From assembly GCA_023145575.1 (NCBI GenBank), contig JAGLDN010000075.1, forward strand, positions 1-34,392: DNA of 34,392 bases, written 5' to 3'. Every line of letters begins with the position of its first letter. Within the stretch, counting starts at the first letter, position 1. The stretch is from Psychromonas sp. GTDB taxonomy: Bacteria; Pseudomonadota; Gammaproteobacteria; Enterobacterales; Psychromonadaceae. Position numbers and translations under genes: made by a program. The notes beneath the pieces are model-generated. The model did no database searches, was not told where the DNA came from, and saw only the letters and a program-made list of their open reading frames with translations. Of the stretch, positions 16,804-34,357 are shown in pieces.

Positions 16804-17058
16804 TTAAGCATTGATAGCATTGATAGCATTGATAGCATTGATAGCATTGATAGCATTGATAGCATTGATAGCATTGATAGCATTGATAGCATTGATAGCA
16901 TTTTCAAATTGTAGCACTTTTTTTAGTGAAATATTGGCATGCCTACCTAGCCAGTGAGCTAATATTGTACGCTTAATCGACCTGATAAAGTCAACGTTTT
17001 TCGAAACCATAACTTTTTCATATTCAATTGAGCAGAGAATTGACCAATAACCATTCAA
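16804..17058 (-). CDS. Hypothetical small ORF ending in (NAI)n repeat
   Basis: 84-aa ORF, no recognisable domain; reality as a gene uncertain. Confidence 0.25.
   Translation of the reverse strand: MNGYWSILCSIEYEKVMVSKNVDFIRSIKRTILAHWLGRHANISLKKVLQFENAINAINAINAINAINAINAINAINAINAINA
16811..16900. repeat. Perfect 9-bp tandem repeat (TTGATAGCA)x10
   Basis: Read directly: uninterrupted TTGATAGCA units from 16811 to 16900; reverse strand encodes an (Asn-Ala-Ile)n tail at the C-terminus of ORF 16804..17058. Confidence 0.97.
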
Positions 17059-17396: not shown

Positions 17397-17552
17397 ATGG
17401 AATTAGATAAGGAAATCATAGATATTTATTTTGGTATCGACAGCTCAGATGGCAAAGAAAGTGGCAGTGATGGTAAAGAAGGCGGCAGTGACAGTGACAA
17501 TATTGCCGTATTAATGCAAAGCGGAGCAGGCGCTGATGCTTTTGTATTTTAA
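17397..17552 (+). CDS. Putative RiPP (graspetide-like) precursor peptide, 51 aa
   Basis: ATG with GGAG upstream (catGGAGaataaaATG): MELDKEIIDIYFGIDSSDGKESGSDGKEGGSDSDNIAVLMQSGAGADAFVF*. Three 7-aa repeats DSSDGKE/SGSDGKE/GGSDSDN. Not in the ORF track (too short); heads an ATP-grasp cluster. Confidence 0.75.
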   Translation: MELDKEIIDIYFGIDSSDGKESGSDGKEGGSDSDNIAVLMQSGAGADAFVF

Positions 17553-17573
17553 TAATACCATTCTTATTATTTT

Positions 17574-17599
17574 AAAAAGGAAGCGCAAGCTTCCTTTTT
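17574..17599 (+). terminator. Intrinsic terminator/attenuator hairpin between precursor and biosynthetic operon
   Basis: AAAAAGGAAGC-GCAA-GCTTCCTTTTT: perfect 11-bp stem, GCAA tetraloop, T-tract. Confidence 0.85.
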
Positions 17600-17621
17600 A
17601 ATTCAACCAGGAAATTTTAAT

Positions 17622-18164
17622 ATGAAATTATTAAAACTTTTACCGGTCGTTGCAACGTTAGCTATTAGTATTCCCGCCTTCGCTACTGGAGTCTGCCAAA
17701 AATATCCAGGGACTACAATTTGCGGCAAAGGCGAAGTTGATAATGTGGTTGCTTATGGAGTAGCTACATTAAACGGTACCACGGTACTTCAAAAAACAGA
17801 TGTCAGTGGCACGCTAACAGCAACTGATGCTAATTTAAACATGGTAAACTCTAAAGGAAACACTACTTTACAAAAGACCACGGTAAACGGCTCTAATCAC
17901 TTTTTTGGCGGGCTGCAGACCAACGGATCTACGTTTAAAAAAACACTTACCATTTCTTCAAGTAGTGTAACACTAACAGATACAAAAACTGTCGATGTTT
18001 CACTGGGTGATATAAAGCCTGTTGTTACACAAGAGCTTTATCTAAAGGGCAATACATTGATTAATGGTGATATTACCTTTAAACAAGGTCATGGCATCGT
18101 CTACCTATCGGATAATGCCCAAATATCAGGTAAAGTAAATGGTGGAAAAGTGGTACATCAATAA
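17622..18164 (+). CDS. Secreted repeat-rich protein (possible beta-helix/bactofilin-like fold)
   Basis: Signal peptide MKLLKLLPVVATLAISIPAFA; regular short strands rich in T/S/N/G (GTTVLQKTDVSGTLTATDANLNMVNSKGNTTLQKTTVNGS...); SD AACCAGGAAATTTTAATATG. Confidence 0.75.
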   Translation: MKLLKLLPVVATLAISIPAFATGVCQKYPGTTICGKGEVDNVVAYGVATLNGTTVLQKTDVSGTLTATDANLNMVNSKGNTTLQKTTVNGSNHFFGGLQTNGSTFKKTLTISSSSVTLTDTKTVDVSLGDIKPVVTQELYLKGNTLINGDITFKQGHGIVYLSDNAQISGKVNGGKVVHQ

Positions 18165-18710
18165 ATGAAATTCTTACATCCGATACTGCAGGTAATTCAT
18201 TTACCTGCTTTTACAGCCGAAGGACAAGGCTTATGTTTTCAGTTAGAGCTTAATTGCAAATCGCTATTCAGCAAGCACGATAATCATGTCACAGCAACGG
18301 GCGGTTTTGCATCCTCTTTCTTGCCTTTATTTGAGCGCATTCGTGGAATATTACTCTCCTTACAAGCTAGCTGGCGTATATTAGATCAGTGTAGTATTAA
18401 TATTCATGCTGAATACCCTAAATTTCGTGTCGCTGATTTTCAATCAGCGGGTCTTGGTATCGCAGTCGCTTTTTATAATGTAGCCCGGGCTATAAATGGT
18501 TCAATGATAGCGGCAAACATTACGGGCACAGGTGCTATTAGACTCGATGGTAGTGTGACCGAAGTGCGCGGTATTATCAGTAAAAAGCACGCTGTTAAGC
18601 AACTCCCCGCCAATACCCAATTAATCGTACCCGATGATATACAACATCTTACCGAATTACACTGTACATTGTGGAAAACAATTCATGACGCTGGTAGTAC
18701 TTACAAATAA
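18165..18710 (+). CDS. Stand-alone Lon-like (peptidase S16) proteolytic domain protein
   Basis: FQSAGLGIAVAFYNVARAINGSMIAANITGTGAIRLDGSVTEVRGIISKKHAVKQLPANTQLIVPDD parallels Lon P-domain (G.SAGLA......G......MTGEI.L.G.V.PIGG.KEK..AA......I.P..), with candidate catalytic Ser (SAG) and Lys; no AAA+ domain. Confidence 0.7.
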   Translation: MKFLHPILQVIHLPAFTAEGQGLCFQLELNCKSLFSKHDNHVTATGGFASSFLPLFERIRGILLSLQASWRILDQCSINIHAEYPKFRVADFQSAGLGIAVAFYNVARAINGSMIAANITGTGAIRLDGSVTEVRGIISKKHAVKQLPANTQLIVPDDIQHLTELHCTLWKTIHDAGSTYK

Positions 18711-19500
18711 CGCAAATGATCCCATCGCATCCATCCTAAAAAATGACGCACACATTATTGATTTGGATACATTGCTTAATCAAATTGATATTTTCGATAA
18801 AATCACTGAGCAACAAACTAAGATCAATTGGTCTCATGACAACTATACGATCCAAAATAGCAATGAGACCATTTTACTCAATCGTATTTGCCATCTTGGC
18901 CTAGATGATGTGAAAAGTTTTGCCTCTGAAGACCGATTGTATTCGCTAATTGAGTTACAAGCCTATCTTGGTTTTGCTGTGAGTAATTTTAAAACACTCA
19001 ATAAACACAAATCGAGCAGTGGTACTGAACCGTGTTTACCTTTACCAAACCAATGGGAACTTATTAAAAAGAATACGGATGTAAGCGTGCCTAATTACTA
19101 CTGGGGAGATCCACGTTTTAATCATTTATCGCTTGAAAAGCGTATTTTTGGTGATATTTATAATTACAATCAATGGCGTCCTAACCAAGCGAATGATGAG
19201 CATGTACAATTTTGTTATCAGCGTCCTTCAGGCTCTCCTTATTTTGTACTCTCTATTGGCGGAGAATCTATTATCACGCCTTTTGAAAATAATTTACCGC
19301 CACCTTGTAACATGCTTCCCATAATCGCTGAAAGCTGCCGGCAAACCCTCAATTTATATATTGCGGAAAGTTTGTTTTTTATTGACGATGACAGCATTAC
19401 TTTTGGCTTTATGAGCCCGCTTGTGAACGTTAGTCAAAGAAATGCCGATTTCAACACCTTTTGCCATCAAACCATTACAAGGGATCATCATGAAGCATAG
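18685..19500 (+). CDS. ATP-grasp-associated partner protein (possible divergent/degenerate ATP-grasp fold), about 271 aa
   Basis: ORF track starts at 18634; ATG at 18685 (MTLVVLTNNANDPIASILKNDAHIIDLDTLLNQ) gives a normal operon overlap. LLNRI...SLIELQAYLGFAVSNFKTLNK resembles pre-ATP-grasp regions; C-terminus TLNLYIAESLFFIDDDSITFGFMSP. Confidence 0.5.
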   Translation: MTLVVLTNNANDPIASILKNDAHIIDLDTLLNQIDIFDKITEQQTKINWSHDNYTIQNSNETILLNRICHLGLDDVKSFASEDRLYSLIELQAYLGFAVSNFKTLNKHKSSSGTEPCLPLPNQWELIKKNTDVSVPNYYWGDPRFNHLSLEKRIFGDIYNYNQWRPNQANDEHVQFCYQRPSGSPYFVLSIGGESIITPFENNLPPPCNMLPIIAESCRQTLNLYIAESLFFIDDDSITFGFMSPLVNVSQRNADFNTFCHQTITRDHHEA

Positions 19501-20509
19501 CTTTATGCCCAAAAAACATAGACCAGAACAAGTTGGGGCAAAACTCAATACAACGAGTCAAGGTGAGCGATTTAATTTCGATGACGCATTATTTGTTGAA
19601 CATCCTCTTCCTATTTATAGCTTGTGCATTGGGCCAAGAAATGACCGCGTTTTACAATTAATTGATCAACATACTCAATTATCTTGCCCCATTAAAATCG
19701 TCTATTTAGATGATTTATTAGACAATTGGAGTTTTGTTTGCCGCGATGGCAATATTCAATTTATAATACATGAGCCCTCGTTAGGAAATTGCATTATTGA
19801 TCCACAACTCATTTATTATCGCGCTGGACTATTTGACGAAACTCATCCAAAGTGGCACGCATTACAGCAACTCACTCAATTACTTGACCAATGGCCTAAA
19901 TCTATTCTTTGTAGCCCATTAAAACATAATTTCAACAACTCCAAGCCATATCAAATGACACAAAGTTTAGCAAAGGCGTGTCAAATTAGTGATAATGTTG
20001 TTACACTTCCTGAAACCTATATCATTAAAGGACAGTCTGCTTGGAAGCATATTCAAAACAAAGCGCTCATTGTTAAGTCTCTATCCAGCTTTCATTCCGA
20101 TGTCGTTGATAAAAAAATATTCGGCTCATGGGCACACACAAAACTCGACCATCTACCTACCCTTTTTCAGTGTATTACCCCAGGTGATGATATTCGTATT
20201 CATTATTTTCGTGGACACTTTTCAGCCAAACGAATAAAAAAACAAGAGTCGAGCAATTATCGCTATTTCTCCGACGTAAAAAAAATGCAAGATTATTCAC
20301 CAAGCCAAGCCGTCAAGAATTTTTGTCAAAAAGTAGCGGATATCGAAGACAATGAATTATTAGGTATTGACTTTCTGCTGCAAGAAAATGGCCAGCTAAT
20401 ATGCTTAGAAGCCAACCCAGGCCCAGGTTGGAGTGCATTTCATCATGATGAATTACCGATAGGCGAAACATTTGTAGCACACATTCTTCACGGTTTATCT
20501 CATGACTGA
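19490..20509 (+). CDS. ATP-grasp family peptide ligase (RimK/MvdD-type), putative RiPP maturase
   Basis: Preferred start ATG 19490 (MKHSFMPKKHRPEQ). NSKPYQMTQSLAKACQI....LPETYI; ALIVKSLSSF; FQCITPGDDIRIHYFRGHFSAKRIKK; DNELLGIDFLLQENGQLICLEANPGPGW. Confidence 0.8.
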   Translation: MKHSFMPKKHRPEQVGAKLNTTSQGERFNFDDALFVEHPLPIYSLCIGPRNDRVLQLIDQHTQLSCPIKIVYLDDLLDNWSFVCRDGNIQFIIHEPSLGNCIIDPQLIYYRAGLFDETHPKWHALQQLTQLLDQWPKSILCSPLKHNFNNSKPYQMTQSLAKACQISDNVVTLPETYIIKGQSAWKHIQNKALIVKSLSSFHSDVVDKKIFGSWAHTKLDHLPTLFQCITPGDDIRIHYFRGHFSAKRIKKQESSNYRYFSDVKKMQDYSPSQAVKNFCQKVADIEDNELLGIDFLLQENGQLICLEANPGPGWSAFHHDELPIGETFVAHILHGLSHD

Positions 20510-22103
20510 GCTTAAATATTTTAAGTCGGCCTGTATTCTAAACGCTCTATTACTCTTTCTTCAATATATTAGTGCCTTGGTGTTTTTTGTAACACAGGGA
20601 TCGTTAATTACTATGGCTATTTCTCATAAGGCTCAATGGCTAAGTTTAAGCCAACTCATTATCGTATTTATTAGCAGTAAAGCACTGATGCTGATCGCGG
20701 ATGTAATAAAGCGTAATATTGTTGACTATATTAGTGTTCGTGAGATTAACTATCAATTTTTACAATGCTTTCCTCGACAACTTTATCGTGATCAAGCTCA
20801 TCTTGCGTCACATTTCTTTACCATGATCAATGATAATTTCAACAAACTCATTCGTTATAAACTTGGTATTTATAATAATAGAATCACGTTTGTGCTTGTT
20901 GGGCTAATTTACTTTAGCTTTTTAATCTATTCCCATTTTAATTTGGGCGGGATATTAGTACTGGTCTTATTCTTCCTTGTTTTTTTAAATCAATACCTTT
21001 GGGGAAACAAAGTAGACAAACACCTCGCTGACAATGAACGTCATAAGCGCTCGATCATGACTTGGATAGATGAGTATTTTCGAAGCTTTAGAGAAATTAA
21101 TCGTATCTGGCCTAAAGCAATCAAGACACAACATTGGGCAAAGCAGATTCTATCAAACTTTGCCCGCAGTAAAGAAAAGTTAGTTAACTACTTCCTCATC
21201 ATGAATTCAACCAGTCAATTGCTAGTTGAGATACCTTTTATTGCCATCACTGGGTTTATTATTTTAGAAGTCTATTGGCAACAAATTAGTTTAGCTCTGG
21301 CATTTGCTTGGTTTGGTATTGCACAATTTATCTTACAAGCGTCGCAAGGTTTAGCAAAAAACATCGAACTGAAAAAAAACTATCAAGCGCAATACAATGA
21401 GATTGACACGTTTTTTAGTGCTTTTAGTGCCCCCGCAAAGCGGCTAATAACCGCAAAGGTCGATGATCACGCTGATAATATTTATGAATTTACACTGCAA
21501 AATAAAAGCATAATTCGTTTAAGTACCCATGCAGGCATCCAGTTAATAGATGCCCCTAATGGCGCAGGGAAAACCACCTTGTTAGACACCTTACTTGATT
21601 ATGATCGCCATGCCAGCTTTCATCAAACCAAAGTACTGCAAGCCTATAAAATGGCTGTTTTAGCGCAGGAAATTAAGCTAATTGATCGAAAGTGCGTCGT
21701 ATTCCATGCTTTGTCTTGTTTTAGTCAGCAAATTACGGGGCCTGAACAAAAGATATCACTCAATGCATGCTGTAGACAAATCAAACAACATCTAGAGATA
21801 TTTTGCACACCCTCAGTTAGCGAAATATGGGTAACACGCCTACAACAATTAGGCGATGCCTACGATAAACGTTCAGAGAAATCACTGTCCACGGGTGAAA
21901 AAGTATTGCTTTCGTGGGCGCGAAACTGGTTTGCTTGGCAAGATAATGTTAGGATCTTAATTATGGATGAGTGTGATGCGGTTTTAGATCGTGATAATCA
22001 GGCTTTACTGTACAAAACCTTAATACAATTGGCTGAACATATAGCGATTTATATGGTATCTCACACCCTAGCACAATCAGGACTTGATAAATTAGATGAG
22101 TAA
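20502..22103 (+). CDS. ABC half-exporter: TM domain fused to ATPase domain
   Basis: Several TM helices, then Walker A APNGAGKTT, atypical signature LSTGEK, Walker B ILIMDECDAVLD, switch His VSHTL; overlaps upstream stop. Confidence 0.87.
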   Translation: MTELKYFKSACILNALLLFLQYISALVFFVTQGSLITMAISHKAQWLSLSQLIIVFISSKALMLIADVIKRNIVDYISVREINYQFLQCFPRQLYRDQAHLASHFFTMINDNFNKLIRYKLGIYNNRITFVLVGLIYFSFLIYSHFNLGGILVLVLFFLVFLNQYLWGNKVDKHLADNERHKRSIMTWIDEYFRSFREINRIWPKAIKTQHWAKQILSNFARSKEKLVNYFLIMNSTSQLLVEIPFIAITGFIILEVYWQQISLALAFAWFGIAQFILQASQGLAKNIELKKNYQAQYNEIDTFFSAFSAPAKRLITAKVDDHADNIYEFTLQNKSIIRLSTHAGIQLIDAPNGAGKTTLLDTLLDYDRHASFHQTKVLQAYKMAVLAQEIKLIDRKCVVFHALSCFSQQITGPEQKISLNACCRQIKQHLEIFCTPSVSEIWVTRLQQLGDAYDKRSEKSLSTGEKVLLSWARNWFAWQDNVRILIMDECDAVLDRDNQALLYKTLIQLAEHIAIYMVSHTLAQSGLDKLDE

Positions 22104-22803
22104 ACCTGCATTAATTAGTTGCCAGCACCTAAGTAAATCGTATGGTCACTCAACCAATGCTTCGGTTATCTTGCGTGATATTACACTCACTATCGAAGAA
22201 GGCTGCTACGTGGCTTTAATGGGTCCATCTGGCTCAGGTAAATCGACATTATTAAATATTTTAGGTTGTTTAGATGACTTTGATAGCGGTAGCTATCATT
22301 TATTAAACTACGCCATTGAACAACAATCTTTAAACCTGTTAAGCCAGATCCGATGTCGTCATATCGGCTTTATTTTTCAAGACTATGGCTTAGTCAACGA
22401 ATACAGCGTGCTCGATAACATTAGTTTACCCCTATATCTTCAAGGCATTGCAAAAACGCGTGCTAACGCAAAAGCCCTCGTCTTGTTAAAACGATTTACA
22501 TTGCAGGATCATGCGGATAAATACCCGCTGACATTGTCTGGTGGTCAACAACAACGTGTTGCTATCTGCCGCGCCCTCATCAGTCAACCTAAGGTGATTT
22601 TAGCCGATGAGCCCACGGGTAACTTAGATCAGCAATCTGGCCAGCAAGTACTGGAACTGTTTGACGAGATACACCAGCAAGGTGTCACCTTAGTCGTTGC
22701 CACCCATGATACTACGTTAGCCACGCGAGCACAGAAAATATTCCATATTGAAGATGGGAAAATTCAAACAATGGCACCCAAAGAGATGGAAACAGATGTT
22801 TAA
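22096..22803 (+). CDS. ABC transporter ATPase, MacB/LolD type
   Basis: GPSGSGKSTLLNILGCLDDFDSGSY, LSGGQQQRVAICRALISQPKVILADEPTGNLD, VATHD. Confidence 0.96.
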   Translation: MSKPALISCQHLSKSYGHSTNASVILRDITLTIEEGCYVALMGPSGSGKSTLLNILGCLDDFDSGSYHLLNYAIEQQSLNLLSQIRCRHIGFIFQDYGLVNEYSVLDNISLPLYLQGIAKTRANAKALVLLKRFTLQDHADKYPLTLSGGQQQRVAICRALISQPKVILADEPTGNLDQQSGQQVLELFDEIHQQGVTLVVATHDTTLATRAQKIFHIEDGKIQTMAPKEMETDV

Positions 22804-23935
22804 TAGTCGACGAATGGCCATGACCATGAAAATAGTAATCAGCGTTATCGTTCTTCTCAGCATAGGATTATTCATCCGCCACCATCATCAACAAACGACC
22901 ATTAAAACTATCGCTGTCAAGCAAGGCCCTATCATTGAAACAATTGAGTCACCAGGTCAAATTGTTCCCCAACATGTATCGCAAATTCGTTCAGCTATCT
23001 CTGGTGTTGTGGCTAAATTATTGGTTCGTGCAGGTGATCACGTCAAAAAAGGCCAAGTCTTATTAAGTATCAGCCCAACTCCGACACCCAATGACACGTT
23101 AATAGCGAGCTCTGCCGTAGAAGCGGCTAACATTAACTTACTAAAAGCACTGCACGACTGGCATCGAAATCAACAAATGTATCAGCACCGTGTTATTGCT
23201 AAACAAACCCTCGATAATTATGAAACTACGTATCTCACGAGCAAAAATGACTTGCTAAGAGCTCAAAATCATCTGAAATTATTAGAAAAAGGTAAAGCCA
23301 ATATCGGCGGACACCTGTTAGATAGCCTCATAAAAAGCCCAATGCAGGGGACTGTATTAAAAATTAACATTAATCAAGGCGACTCTATCGTACCCGTCAC
23401 CGAATATCAATCTGGTACGCCATTATTAATCATCGCTGATTTATCACGACTTGAATTTCACAGTATTATTAGTCAGCTAGATGTACAAAAACTTCAGCTA
23501 AAACAAGATGCTATCATTTATTTACAATCCTTAAATAATGAAACCATCAAAGCTAACGTAAGTAGCATCGCTTGGCTGAGTGAGGCTGATGATCCATCCA
23601 AAACCCAATCTGACTTATTTCACATTGACTCACCTTATGCCAATGGCTATCAAGTCATTCTTAATAAATTGCAACTCCCCAAACACTATAAACTGCGGGC
23701 AGGTCTTGTGGGTAATGCCGAATTTGTCATAAATAAACACGCACATGCGTTATTCATTCCTCAGCAAGCAATCTTTTATTCCACTCAAGCATCACCTTAT
23801 GTCTGGCTTAAACAAAAGGGGCAATTTCTAAAGGTCTCTATTAAACTTGGGCTAAGTTCAAATGAACAAGTCGAAATTATAAGTGGATTGAAGATTGCTG
23901 ATCGCGTTGCCCTATCACAGCCCACCTCAGGGTAG
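22796..23935 (+). CDS. HlyD/MacA-like periplasmic adaptor
   Basis: Preferred start ATG 22796 (MFNSRRMAMTMKIVISVIVLLSIGLFI); VAKLLVRAGDHVKKGQVLLSISP, IKSPMQGTVLKININQGDSI. Confidence 0.92.
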   Translation: MFNSRRMAMTMKIVISVIVLLSIGLFIRHHHQQTTIKTIAVKQGPIIETIESPGQIVPQHVSQIRSAISGVVAKLLVRAGDHVKKGQVLLSISPTPTPNDTLIASSAVEAANINLLKALHDWHRNQQMYQHRVIAKQTLDNYETTYLTSKNDLLRAQNHLKLLEKGKANIGGHLLDSLIKSPMQGTVLKININQGDSIVPVTEYQSGTPLLIIADLSRLEFHSIISQLDVQKLQLKQDAIIYLQSLNNETIKANVSSIAWLSEADDPSKTQSDLFHIDSPYANGYQVILNKLQLPKHYKLRAGLVGNAEFVINKHAHALFIPQQAIFYSTQASPYVWLKQKGQFLKVSIKLGLSSNEQVEIISGLKIADRVALSQPTSG

Positions 23936-23939
23936 AGAT

Positions 23940-25178
23940 ATGCCAAAATCATTATCTTCATCTCAATCTATTCTTCCTTTGATTGTAAATGAACTATGCC
24001 ATTGGAGATCATGGCTACTTTGTATCGTTCTATCCTGGGGTATTCTCTGTTTAACTGTTGCATTATCACTAAGCTGGCTTAATTACGCTAAAAATAAAGC
24101 CAGGTTAACCCATATAGCAAAGCCGACTGTATATTTTGCTTTTGATAAAACAGGCTTAAATTATCATGATCAAATAGCTCATCAGTATTTTCAATTATCA
24201 CTGAAACAAATTAACGGCTTGAAAAATGCATTTCCAAGTATCAGCGTTATTACGCCAGTCATTACCAGCCCTTATCTACAAATCTTGCAATATCAAAATC
24301 GACGAGTGAAAACCACGATTATGGGTAAAAATGTTAGTAGTCAAAAAATTGAAGTTGATGATATCTTGCCACCAGGTCGATTTTTTTCCGCTTTAGATGA
24401 ACAGGCCCATCACCATGTTATTATCTTATCGCCTTACGTGAGTGAAAAATTATTTACTACACTAAACAGTGTTGGCAAAATTGTATTACTGCATGGATCA
24501 CCCATGCGCGTTATTGGCGTATTAAATCCTCAATCCAATTTTTTAAGTGGAAACGGTACAAATGCTTTAGTTCCTCTAGGTTTGGCAAGAGACTTCTGGG
24601 GATCGCGCGCGTTGTGGTTCGAATTTTTATTAAAACCACACACGCAAGTAGCACCCTTTATCGCGCAATTAAAGAACACGTTACGCCATCATTGGCACTT
24701 AGCGCCAAAAGAAACCCGCTTATTCTTAACGTGGACACTCGATAAGTTGTACAGCATGAATCAGCAAAGCTTTTTTTTAAGTTATTGTTTTAGTCTTGCT
24801 TGTGGATTTATTTTATTTTTAACGGCATTATCAGTATTTTATAATTTATACAAATATTTTTTACAGCAACGTCACCGTCAATTTGGAATTATCCTCTGCT
24901 TAGGGGCAGATCATAGTTTTATATCACGCTGGGTATTCACTGAATTATGTGGACTCATTAGTATTAGTACGCTTATCGCATTATTAGGCAGTTTTGTTAT
25001 CAATGCCTATTTACGTTGGGCAGGGTTAAGTGAGCAATCACTTTTCGCTTGGCCCCTCATCATCATTTTATTAATTGCAAGTTGCTCTGTCTTATTATTT
25101 GGATTTCTTATTCAAAAATCAACACTGCAATATTTACGACAACGCAGCATAATGGATGTAATTCAGCGTGCTTTTTAA
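23940..25178 (+). CDS. FtsX/MacB-like permease 1
   Basis: ATG 23940 (MPKSLSSSQSILPLIVNELCHWRSWLLCIVLSWGILCLTVAL), large extracytoplasmic region, three C-terminal TM segments. Confidence 0.82.
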   Translation: MPKSLSSSQSILPLIVNELCHWRSWLLCIVLSWGILCLTVALSLSWLNYAKNKARLTHIAKPTVYFAFDKTGLNYHDQIAHQYFQLSLKQINGLKNAFPSISVITPVITSPYLQILQYQNRRVKTTIMGKNVSSQKIEVDDILPPGRFFSALDEQAHHHVIILSPYVSEKLFTTLNSVGKIVLLHGSPMRVIGVLNPQSNFLSGNGTNALVPLGLARDFWGSRALWFEFLLKPHTQVAPFIAQLKNTLRHHWHLAPKETRLFLTWTLDKLYSMNQQSFFLSYCFSLACGFILFLTALSVFYNLYKYFLQQRHRQFGIILCLGADHSFISRWVFTELCGLISISTLIALLGSFVINAYLRWAGLSEQSLFAWPLIIILLIASCSVLLFGFLIQKSTLQYLRQRSIMDVIQRAF

Positions 25179-26301
25179 ATATAAACTTTCCTGGCATACT
25201 ATCCTCGCACTATGTTTAAGTGTTGTTTTTTTATTGGTATCGGCAAACATTGGTCAAGCAATGCTGCAAATCGGAACAACTGTTTTACAGAGCTTCGGTC
25301 TTAATAAAATTGTGCTCTCTGTTAAAGATCTACCTGTTTTCCATCGTGGTTTATTGTTAAGCGATGCATTGGCATTAAAAAAATCAACCAATGTAAGCAA
25401 GCTTGCGGTCATCAAATCACGTTACATTTCAATATCTACCACGAATAAAACCGTTGACGCGGTAGCATTAAAGCTGATCTCTCGAGATTATTTTATGATT
25501 AATCGCTATCACCTTATTGCGGGTTATCAGCTTCCCCAAAAAGCCTTTAAAACGTGTCGGCCTTTTGCATTGATTGATACACAATTACAAAAGCGGATAC
25601 ATTGGTATGCTGGCCAGCCAATATGGTTTAAAGGCATGTTGTTACACGTCACAGGCATAGTGTCGTTTAATAGCATTGGATCCTCTCCTGGCACACTTTG
25701 GTTACCGTGGTGTAGCTTGCTAGGTACGGGTACAAGTATTTATGTGGATCAAATTGAATTATTGCTGCGATCGAATAAATACAAAAAATTAGTTATTCAA
25801 CAACTACAACACAGGCTTGGCTTGCCGTCGATTAATGATATTGAGGAACAAAACTTTAATGGCGCAGTCGCCCTGATACAACATTATCAAAACAGTTTTT
25901 TGCATTTTTTATACTTTATTAGTTTAAGTAGCTTCTTAACGGCCGTATTTGGCTTAAGTATTTATATTTTTGCCTTAATCAAGCAAAATGAGAAAAAAAA
26001 CTTTATTCGCTCTACATTAGGAGAGAAAGTACGCGCTCAAATTATTGGCTATATTCGGATTGCGCTTGTCTATTTTTTATATAGCTATATTCTGGGTAGT
26101 ATAATTAGTTTTGTGATCATTCGATGGATTAATTCTCTACAAATAAAAATTCAATCATTGGCTAATATGATATTACACATCTCATTCTCTCCTAGCTTGT
26201 TACTTTATAGTTTTATTTCTGGCGCAATTATTATCGCAGCAACTGTTTACGTAATTAGCCATCGAAAATTAAACCAATTACCCATTCATATTTTAAAATA
26301 A
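25168..26301 (+). CDS. FtsX/MacB-like permease 2
   Basis: GTG start at 25168 overlapping previous stop; N-terminal TM, extracytoplasmic domain with RYISIS...ISRDYFMINRYHLIAG and ALIDTQL, C-terminal TMs. Confidence 0.82.
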   Translation: MLFKYKLSWHTILALCLSVVFLLVSANIGQAMLQIGTTVLQSFGLNKIVLSVKDLPVFHRGLLLSDALALKKSTNVSKLAVIKSRYISISTTNKTVDAVALKLISRDYFMINRYHLIAGYQLPQKAFKTCRPFALIDTQLQKRIHWYAGQPIWFKGMLLHVTGIVSFNSIGSSPGTLWLPWCSLLGTGTSIYVDQIELLLRSNKYKKLVIQQLQHRLGLPSINDIEEQNFNGAVALIQHYQNSFLHFLYFISLSSFLTAVFGLSIYIFALIKQNEKKNFIRSTLGEKVRAQIIGYIRIALVYFLYSYILGSIISFVIIRWINSLQIKIQSLANMILHISFSPSLLLYSFISGAIIIAATVYVISHRKLNQLPIHILK

Positions 26302-33719: not shown

Positions 33720-34357
33720 CAAGTCAGATTCAACCGCCAAATGCATAATCGTCATACCGCTAGTGCTAGCATATGTTTATCATTATTTCGAATGGTGCTT
33801 GGTAAAAAATGGCTTTTCTGCCTATTATTTAACTGAATTAAATTGCTACGAACAGCTTCATCGTGGATCAGTTTAAAATCTGCAGATTTAGACCCATTAC
33901 ACTCGAAGATGCAGGTTTCAGGTGTGATGGGTATATCACCTCGCTTTCCTGCGCAGGAATGTGTTGAGATCCCCACATTGCCTTTTATCTTTCCAAACGA
34001 ACTTATAGATTGTTTCATGGCTGACTTTAATAGTCTTTTCAATATCACTCTTTAATCGGCCAGTTATTTGCTCGGGGCTTCATTTTTCTTTGAGTTTTGA
34101 TGCAATGTATTCAATCGTTTCAAGCGTCATAACGCGATAGGAAACCGCTCTTGATCGCCTTTTAATTGCTTTGCTATTTCCTGTATAGCGCGATAACCTC
34201 GCTTGCCAATATTGCGTTTCAACTCTCGTGAAATCATTAATTGATGCACACCAAGTTGCTTGGCTATTTTGGTTTGATTTATTGTGCTTTTATTAAGGCC
34301 TGAAAGTTGGTATCTTAGGGGCACAGTCAGTTGTTTCTTTTTTTTCATTATTTGCAT
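33720..34357 (-). pseudogene. IS30-family transposase remnant (frameshifted, interrupted)
   Basis: 34127-34357: LTVPLRYQLSGLNKSTINQTKIAKQLGVHQLMISRELKRNIGKRGYRA (IS30 HTH); continues in other frames MTLETIEYIASKLKEK..SPEQITGRLKSDIEKTIK.VSHETIYKFVW; C-terminal fragment LIQLNNRQKSHFLPS...; broken near 33890-33935. Confidence 0.8.
33889..33938. repeat. Back-to-back TIR hairpin inside IS30 remnant
   Basis: TAGACCCATTACACTCGAAGATGC...TTTCAGGTGTGATGGGTATAT; same end sequence as MITE 3557-3843. Confidence 0.6.

Follow-up and report, generated by a model that had tools for sequence, protein, structure and literature searches.

Gene content of the locus

We analysed a 34,392-nucleotide contig of a Psychromonas sp. 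assembly (GCA_023145575.1, JAGLDN010000075.1; hereafter the window), in which an open reading frame (ORF) at 17622–18164 on the forward strand (ATG start, 180 amino acids) encodes what its homologs and an AlphaFold2 model indicate to be an exported beta-solenoid protein. Upstream on the same strand lies the gene for a putative precursor peptide of 51 amino acids (MELDKEIIDIYFGIDSSDGKESGSDGKEGGSDSDN..., 17397–17552; 55 amino acids if read from 17385), which has a DGK[DE] motif but no leader motif of a known kind that we could recognize; on its sequence, it is a putative substrate for modification. Between the two genes is a perfect 13-bp hairpin (17572–17601; A-tract, GGAAGC-GCAA-GCTTCC, T-tract) with a predicted RNA folding energy of −18.8 kcal/mol (z −4.5). 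This hairpin is a probable partial terminator, which would raise the dosage of the precursor; it was not among the results of a generic terminator scan, probably because the T-tract sits inside the stem. The number of sites returned by a sigma-70 promoter scan was at the level of chance. The initial annotation correctly placed the solenoid gene between precursor and maturation genes (17385 or 17397–17552 on one side, 18165 onward on the other), but wrongly made it the first gene of the operon, as the precursor gene precedes it with the hairpin in between.

The maturation and export genes follow on the forward strand, and neighbouring ORFs overlap from the first of them onward. That gene begins one base past the solenoid stop and encodes a stand-alone Lon-type (S16) protease domain without an AAA+ module (18165–18710), which matches NCBIfam spore_lonB (E = 8e-8) and, just under the Pfam cutoff, Lon_C (E = 5.5e-4); its Ser94 and Lys140 align with the catalytic dyad of Lon. 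The next product, of 270 amino acids (18688–19500; ORF from 18634), has no sequence family match. Foldseek ranks the graspetide macrocyclases AMdnB, MdnC and PsnB, together with a Chryseobacterium ligase, closest to its AlphaFold2 model (pLDDT 79), with E values from 3e-13, and in hhalign its profile pairs with that of the active ATP-grasps at 91% (E = 1e-6). Because the E-x-N of the LE(A/I)NPSPG motif of active ATP-grasps is replaced in 11 of 11 members of this partner family, we read the protein as a pseudo-enzyme partner, a second ATP-grasp that is probably catalytically inactive.

An ATP-grasp ligase of the active type (19490–20509; ORF from 19442) retains LEANPGPG. It matches TIGR04187 at E = 2e-3, under the curated cutoff, and its homologs match the same model at E = 1e-16 to 1e-46, as well as MvdC/MvdD, all likewise under the curated cutoffs. 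At the DFR position the relatives have DYRY, the window protein NYRY and a more distant Rheinheimera homolog DFR. Downstream are an ABC exporter half-transporter with membrane domain and ATPase (20502–22103; Pfam and NCBIfam searches), a LolD/MacB/DarD-type ABC ATPase (22096–22803; E = 2e-63), an HlyD/MacA-type membrane fusion protein (22748–23935; RND_mfp, E = 1e-40) and two MacB/FtsX-type permeases (23895–25178 and 25168–26301; PF12704, E = 1.5e-18 and 6.5e-8). On the other side of the precursor, about ten 9-bp repeats (TTGATAGCA) at 16809–16905 can be read as an NAI-repeat ORF on the minus strand.

A predicted exported beta-solenoid

The solenoid protein begins with MKLLK-LLPVVATLAISIPAFA, followed by TG, and has all three regions (n, h and c) of a Sec/SPase I signal, with a mean hydropathy of +2.15 over residues 6–20. 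The predicted signal peptide comprises 21 residues (17622–17684) and would be cleaved between AFA and TG. Judged from these features, the protein is probably Sec-exported, and its reading as an exported partner of the peptide system is well supported. The mature part consists of 15.7% T, 6.9% S, 8.2% N and 12.6% G and contains neither Arg nor Trp; translation, composition and hydropathy bear out the earlier description of a T/S/N/G-rich ORF with a signal peptide. The GTTVLQKTDV/GNTTLQKTTV-type repeat described with it is indeed the best self-match (GTTVLQKTDVSGT and GNTTLQKTTVNGS, spaced 27 residues apart), but 11 of 500 composition shuffles equal its score (p about 0.02), so that the repeat taken alone is just mildly above chance. 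It is real but weak, and reflects the rungs of the solenoid; at the DNA level, a repeat search returned a single 23-nt pair (74%). A lipoprotein, including an immunity lipoprotein, was considered and rejected: the stretch ahead of Cys25, ATGV, has Val at position −1 and forms no lipobox.

The structure prediction that had been proposed for this protein returned an all-beta model. Built with 8 homologs, the AlphaFold2 model has a mean pLDDT of 89.3 (mostly 93–98 in the mature part), a pTM of 0.81, about 15 strands and no helix, and strongly supports an all-beta solenoid as a confident prediction. Foldseek gave no match at E ≤ 1e-3 in the PDB and viral libraries; the nearest matches, at TM about 0.3–0.5, are beta-helices (bactofilin BacA and family 3 pectate lyase), and as these are right-handed the solenoid is presumably right-handed too. 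It shares with them short stacked strands and Gly at the turns. It differs from bactofilins, which reside in the cytosol, and from pectate lyases, whose catalytic residues are conserved; the solenoid has no such residues. In an alignment of 16 homologs the invariant positions, Met1 aside, are all Gly, Leu or Phe, which makes an enzyme unlikely; a Cys pair directly after the signal peptide is kept in most of the homologs.

Sequence searches of Pfam, NCBIfam and the PDB gave nothing convincing, and a confident match to an unrelated known family was sought in these and by Foldseek without one being found. Matches to YdcK and ice-binding proteins (E = 0.005–0.5) merely hint at a solenoid. A match to PF17284 (E = 6e-5) was judged to be due to chance, as it occurred in one member only. 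Membership in the bactofilins was rejected: PF04519 matched one member only, at E = 0.05, and the solenoid has a signal peptide.

Conservation of the locus in Comchoanobacteraceae

Homologs of the solenoid occur in all 14 sampled genomes of Ca. Comchoanobacteraceae, the gammaproteobacterial family that includes Ca. Synchoanobacter. A search with the profile of the solenoid found 13 of these at E < 1e-3; the copy in the remaining genome, G765, is divergent and scores 34 bits. The window protein is 31% identical to the copy at L015 over 166 residues (E = 4e-16). In each of the 14 genomes, the solenoid gene is directly followed by a short ORF that contains SKDGKDGKEGKDD or a sequence close to it. 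This ORF starts within a few tens of nucleotides of the solenoid stop or overlaps the solenoid gene, and in many cases it shares 4 nt with the ATP-grasp ORF. The ATP-grasp gene follows in 13 genomes; in G769, the exception, the contig stops shortly after the precursor. The pseudo-ATP-grasp was recognized in 10. The core of these precursors is near-invariant, SKDGKD(GKEG)KDD, and all 14 share the DGK[DE] motif of the window precursor, as does an ORF on a Megaera plasmid. In the stretches examined, we saw no dedicated exporter next to these clusters.

Distant ATP-grasp matches in the class are loci in small genomes, and the profile search places loci in Ca. Comchoanobacter bicostacola, Ca. Synchoanobacter obligatus and single-cell genomes or MAGs of Coxiellaceae/Legionellales. 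The Comchoano bacteria are described as having a Coxiella-like type IV secretion system (T4SS) and living with choanoflagellates (PMC9418006). The retention of the locus in 14 of 14 sampled genomes of a marine, host-associated family with reduced genomes suggests that it contributes to the association with protists.

These loci bear on whether the solenoid is itself a second substrate of the maturase, as had been suggested. It is adjacent to the peptide genes and rich in Lys, Thr and Ser, but DGK[DE] and GK[DE]G are absent from all of the co-encoded solenoids (0/14), and a Sec-exported protein, predicted by AlphaFold2 to be a compact solenoid with a signal peptide, would be ill suited as substrate of a ligase that works in the cytosol. 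We therefore regard a second-substrate role as highly improbable.

Solenoids and clusters apart

Profile searches detected the solenoid in 12 of 369 genomes of the class and in one more elsewhere in the phylum. Several genomes (G523, G423, G453, G713, G509 and G1055) have a solenoid without an adjacent ATP-grasp of the window family, and such stand-alone homologs, which span several gammaproteobacterial families and the one other genome of the phylum, indicate that the fold has a peptide-independent function. One of them lies beside a non-ribosomal peptide synthetase (NRPS; L144, 3–8771) and another beside a remnant of a bacteriocin-exporter-like ABC gene (L145, 8556–9479). Their spread would suit a solenoid with a surface or adhesin-like function whose only tie to the peptide operon is shared transcription. 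We consider this improbable, as the solenoid adjoins the precursor in 14 of 14 genomes of one family and in the window, with a different gene order (solenoid first in Comchoanobacteraceae, precursor first in the window), which argues for a functional link between the two. The solenoid is a previously unnoticed part of a peptide-making system, and not an odd neighbour.

A second copy in the source genome, on contig C259 (7660–8336 of L005, minus strand), has decayed versions of the precursor, the solenoid and the beginning of the Lon gene, arranged as in the window; stops and one deletion interrupt it, and the precursor start MELD..IYFG is retained. This decayed copy also kept the three genes together, in support of a partner role, whereas peptide-free solenoid homologs and a Megaera cluster without a solenoid count against one. 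C259 bears IS30-type transposase genes (named by inspection), and a similar IS30-type transposase fragment lies at 33752–34048 (minus strand) of the window. A single-sequence solenoid search of genome contigs returned no relatives; the solenoid is too divergent for such a search.

The solenoid is missing from 23 of 23 congeners searched, and no ATP-grasp of the window family occurs in the congeners sampled; a recent gain of the locus, or loss in the congeners, is likely. Contamination of the bin was judged unlikely because DnaG, encoded on the same contig as the operon, is 64–74% identical to that of all 23 congeners. Among 99 relatives other than the source genome, the only solenoid match (G041, E = 7e-4) falls within an LptA-like gene and was judged to be a chance match of beta-repeats.

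A plasmid of Ca. Megaera polyxenophila (Rickettsiales) encodes a DGK precursor, both ATP-grasps and two isopenicillin-N-synthase (IPNS)-like dioxygenases but no solenoid, and the plasmid search likewise returned no solenoid. The dioxygenase genes, beside the precursor (L016, 13692–15190), are reminiscent of corallotide lysine hydroxylation. The cluster also weighs on the idea that the solenoid assists biosynthesis or export, as a periplasmic chaperone or adaptor through which the peptide completes its folding, is trimmed or is released, by a logic like that of MirC or CorC. The tight genetic coupling of solenoid and precursor would fit such a helper, and partner-dependent graspetides are reported (PMC13097080). 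MirC/CorC-type partners bind the ligase, however, which the solenoid would not meet because of its signal peptide, and the Megaera cluster does without it; by this analogy, a helper role seems quite unlikely.

Viral contigs searched with the ATP-grasp alignment gave no matches. Beside related paired ATP-grasps elsewhere are proteins with Lys/Glu-rich repeat tails: a Herbaspirillum M6-type protease (L024, 7197–9044) and a trypsin-like protease (L013, 2412–4532, minus strand), both read by eye, and a Paracoccus protein (L025, 10516–11226). The two proteases share a C-terminal LRPDLS.GAL, and LRPDL also occurs in a 41-amino-acid ORF of the Megaera plasmid; the proteases may themselves be ligase substrates at their loci.

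Proposed role of the solenoid

We propose that the solenoid is a Sec-exported, non-catalytic beta-solenoid that acts outside the cytoplasm as carrier or anchor of a graspetide-like ribosomal peptide, a reading that we hold tentatively, at a little below an even chance. In the cytosol, the ATP-grasp ligase and its pseudo-ATP-grasp subunit would act on the DGK[DE] repeats of the precursor, cross-linking Lys to Asp or Glu and perhaps to Ser; we infer this modification because the ligase is homologous to graspetide synthetases. In the window, the Lon-type domain would then trim the peptide, and the ABC and MacAB-like transporters would export it. After leaving by Sec the solenoid, which in most members could form one disulfide close to its N-cap, would fold in the periplasm; there, or on the surface of the cell, it might bind, carry or anchor the mature peptide.

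Alternatively, the solenoid could be an immunity protein that sequesters the mature peptide in the periplasm and so shields the producer cell or its proteases. Median identities among the co-encoded loci are 22% for the solenoid and 32% for the ATP-grasp, with a nearly fixed precursor core. An exported, fast-diverging protein coupled with the precursor would suit immunity, as would the natural-product and export genes that adjoin some stand-alone homologs (the NRPS and the ABC-exporter remnant) and the report that all graspetides characterized by 2022 are protease inhibitors (PMC8939145). Yet typical toxin/immunity pairs co-diversify, whereas here the core is almost invariant in 14 genomes; the window already has dedicated exporters; and antibacterial activity of the peptide is a supposition. 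The immunity role is thus unlikely in our estimate. A constant core beside a fast-changing solenoid fits a carrier, anchor or surface role better than a toxin–immunity pair, and of the extracellular scaffold and the immunity factor named in the initial annotation, both possible, the scaffold or anchor fits slightly better.

More speculatively, and with little probability in our view, the DGK peptide could be a structural or host-contact element, cross-linked and displayed on the exported solenoid, and not an antibiotic. If so, a ribosomal modified peptide would serve as surface material or adhesin, kept by a choanoflagellate-associated lineage despite genomes of about 1 Mb.

Comparison with known systems

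The window locus looks like a graspetide cluster. With those of microviridin (MdnB/MdnC), plesiocin (PsnB) and chryseoviridin (CdnC) it shares ATP-grasps homologous to TIGR04187/MvdC/MvdD, an adjacent small precursor with Lys, Asp, Glu and Ser, ABC and HlyD-type exporters, and a partner whose predicted fold matches MdnC/PsnB-type macrocyclases. It differs in that its ATP-grasp family scores under the curated cutoffs and has DYRY/NYRY in place of DFR, in the added pseudo-ATP-grasp partner and exported solenoid, and in having no recognized leader motif.

Corallotide and rosaritide are partner-protein-dependent graspetides with Lys–Asp isopeptides in repeated motifs (Carter et al., PMC13097080). 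They too have accessory partners, and the corallotide 2OG-Fe oxygenase compares with the IPNS-like dioxygenases of Megaera, but the partners described there are a PPIase-like protein, an oxygenase and a beta-lactamase-like protein, unlike an exported solenoid. We found no exported solenoid in main text from the graspetide surveys, that paper included, and this partner adds a component class to those described there. In that sense the secreted protein is as unexpected as first annotated; in its own clade, however, it is the rule (14 of 14). The exact letters of the precursor core were absent from the top-ranked literature matches.

By its content, the locus also resembles the 'branch 8' ATP-grasp loci of Makarova et al. 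2022 (PMC8939145), in which the ATP-grasp is reported to be accompanied by a second, inactive one and by peptidases that belong to unrelated families. The window likewise has a Lon-type peptidase and a second ATP-grasp whose sequence suggests that it is inactive. The branch 8 partner is described as truncated, whereas that of the window is near full length with a lost E-x-N; and whereas no precursor could be predicted for branch 8 according to that report, the window has a conserved short DGK ORF as a candidate. The DGK[DE] repeats thus offer a plausible precursor family for those ATP-grasp peptide loci in which the second ATP-grasp is inactive.
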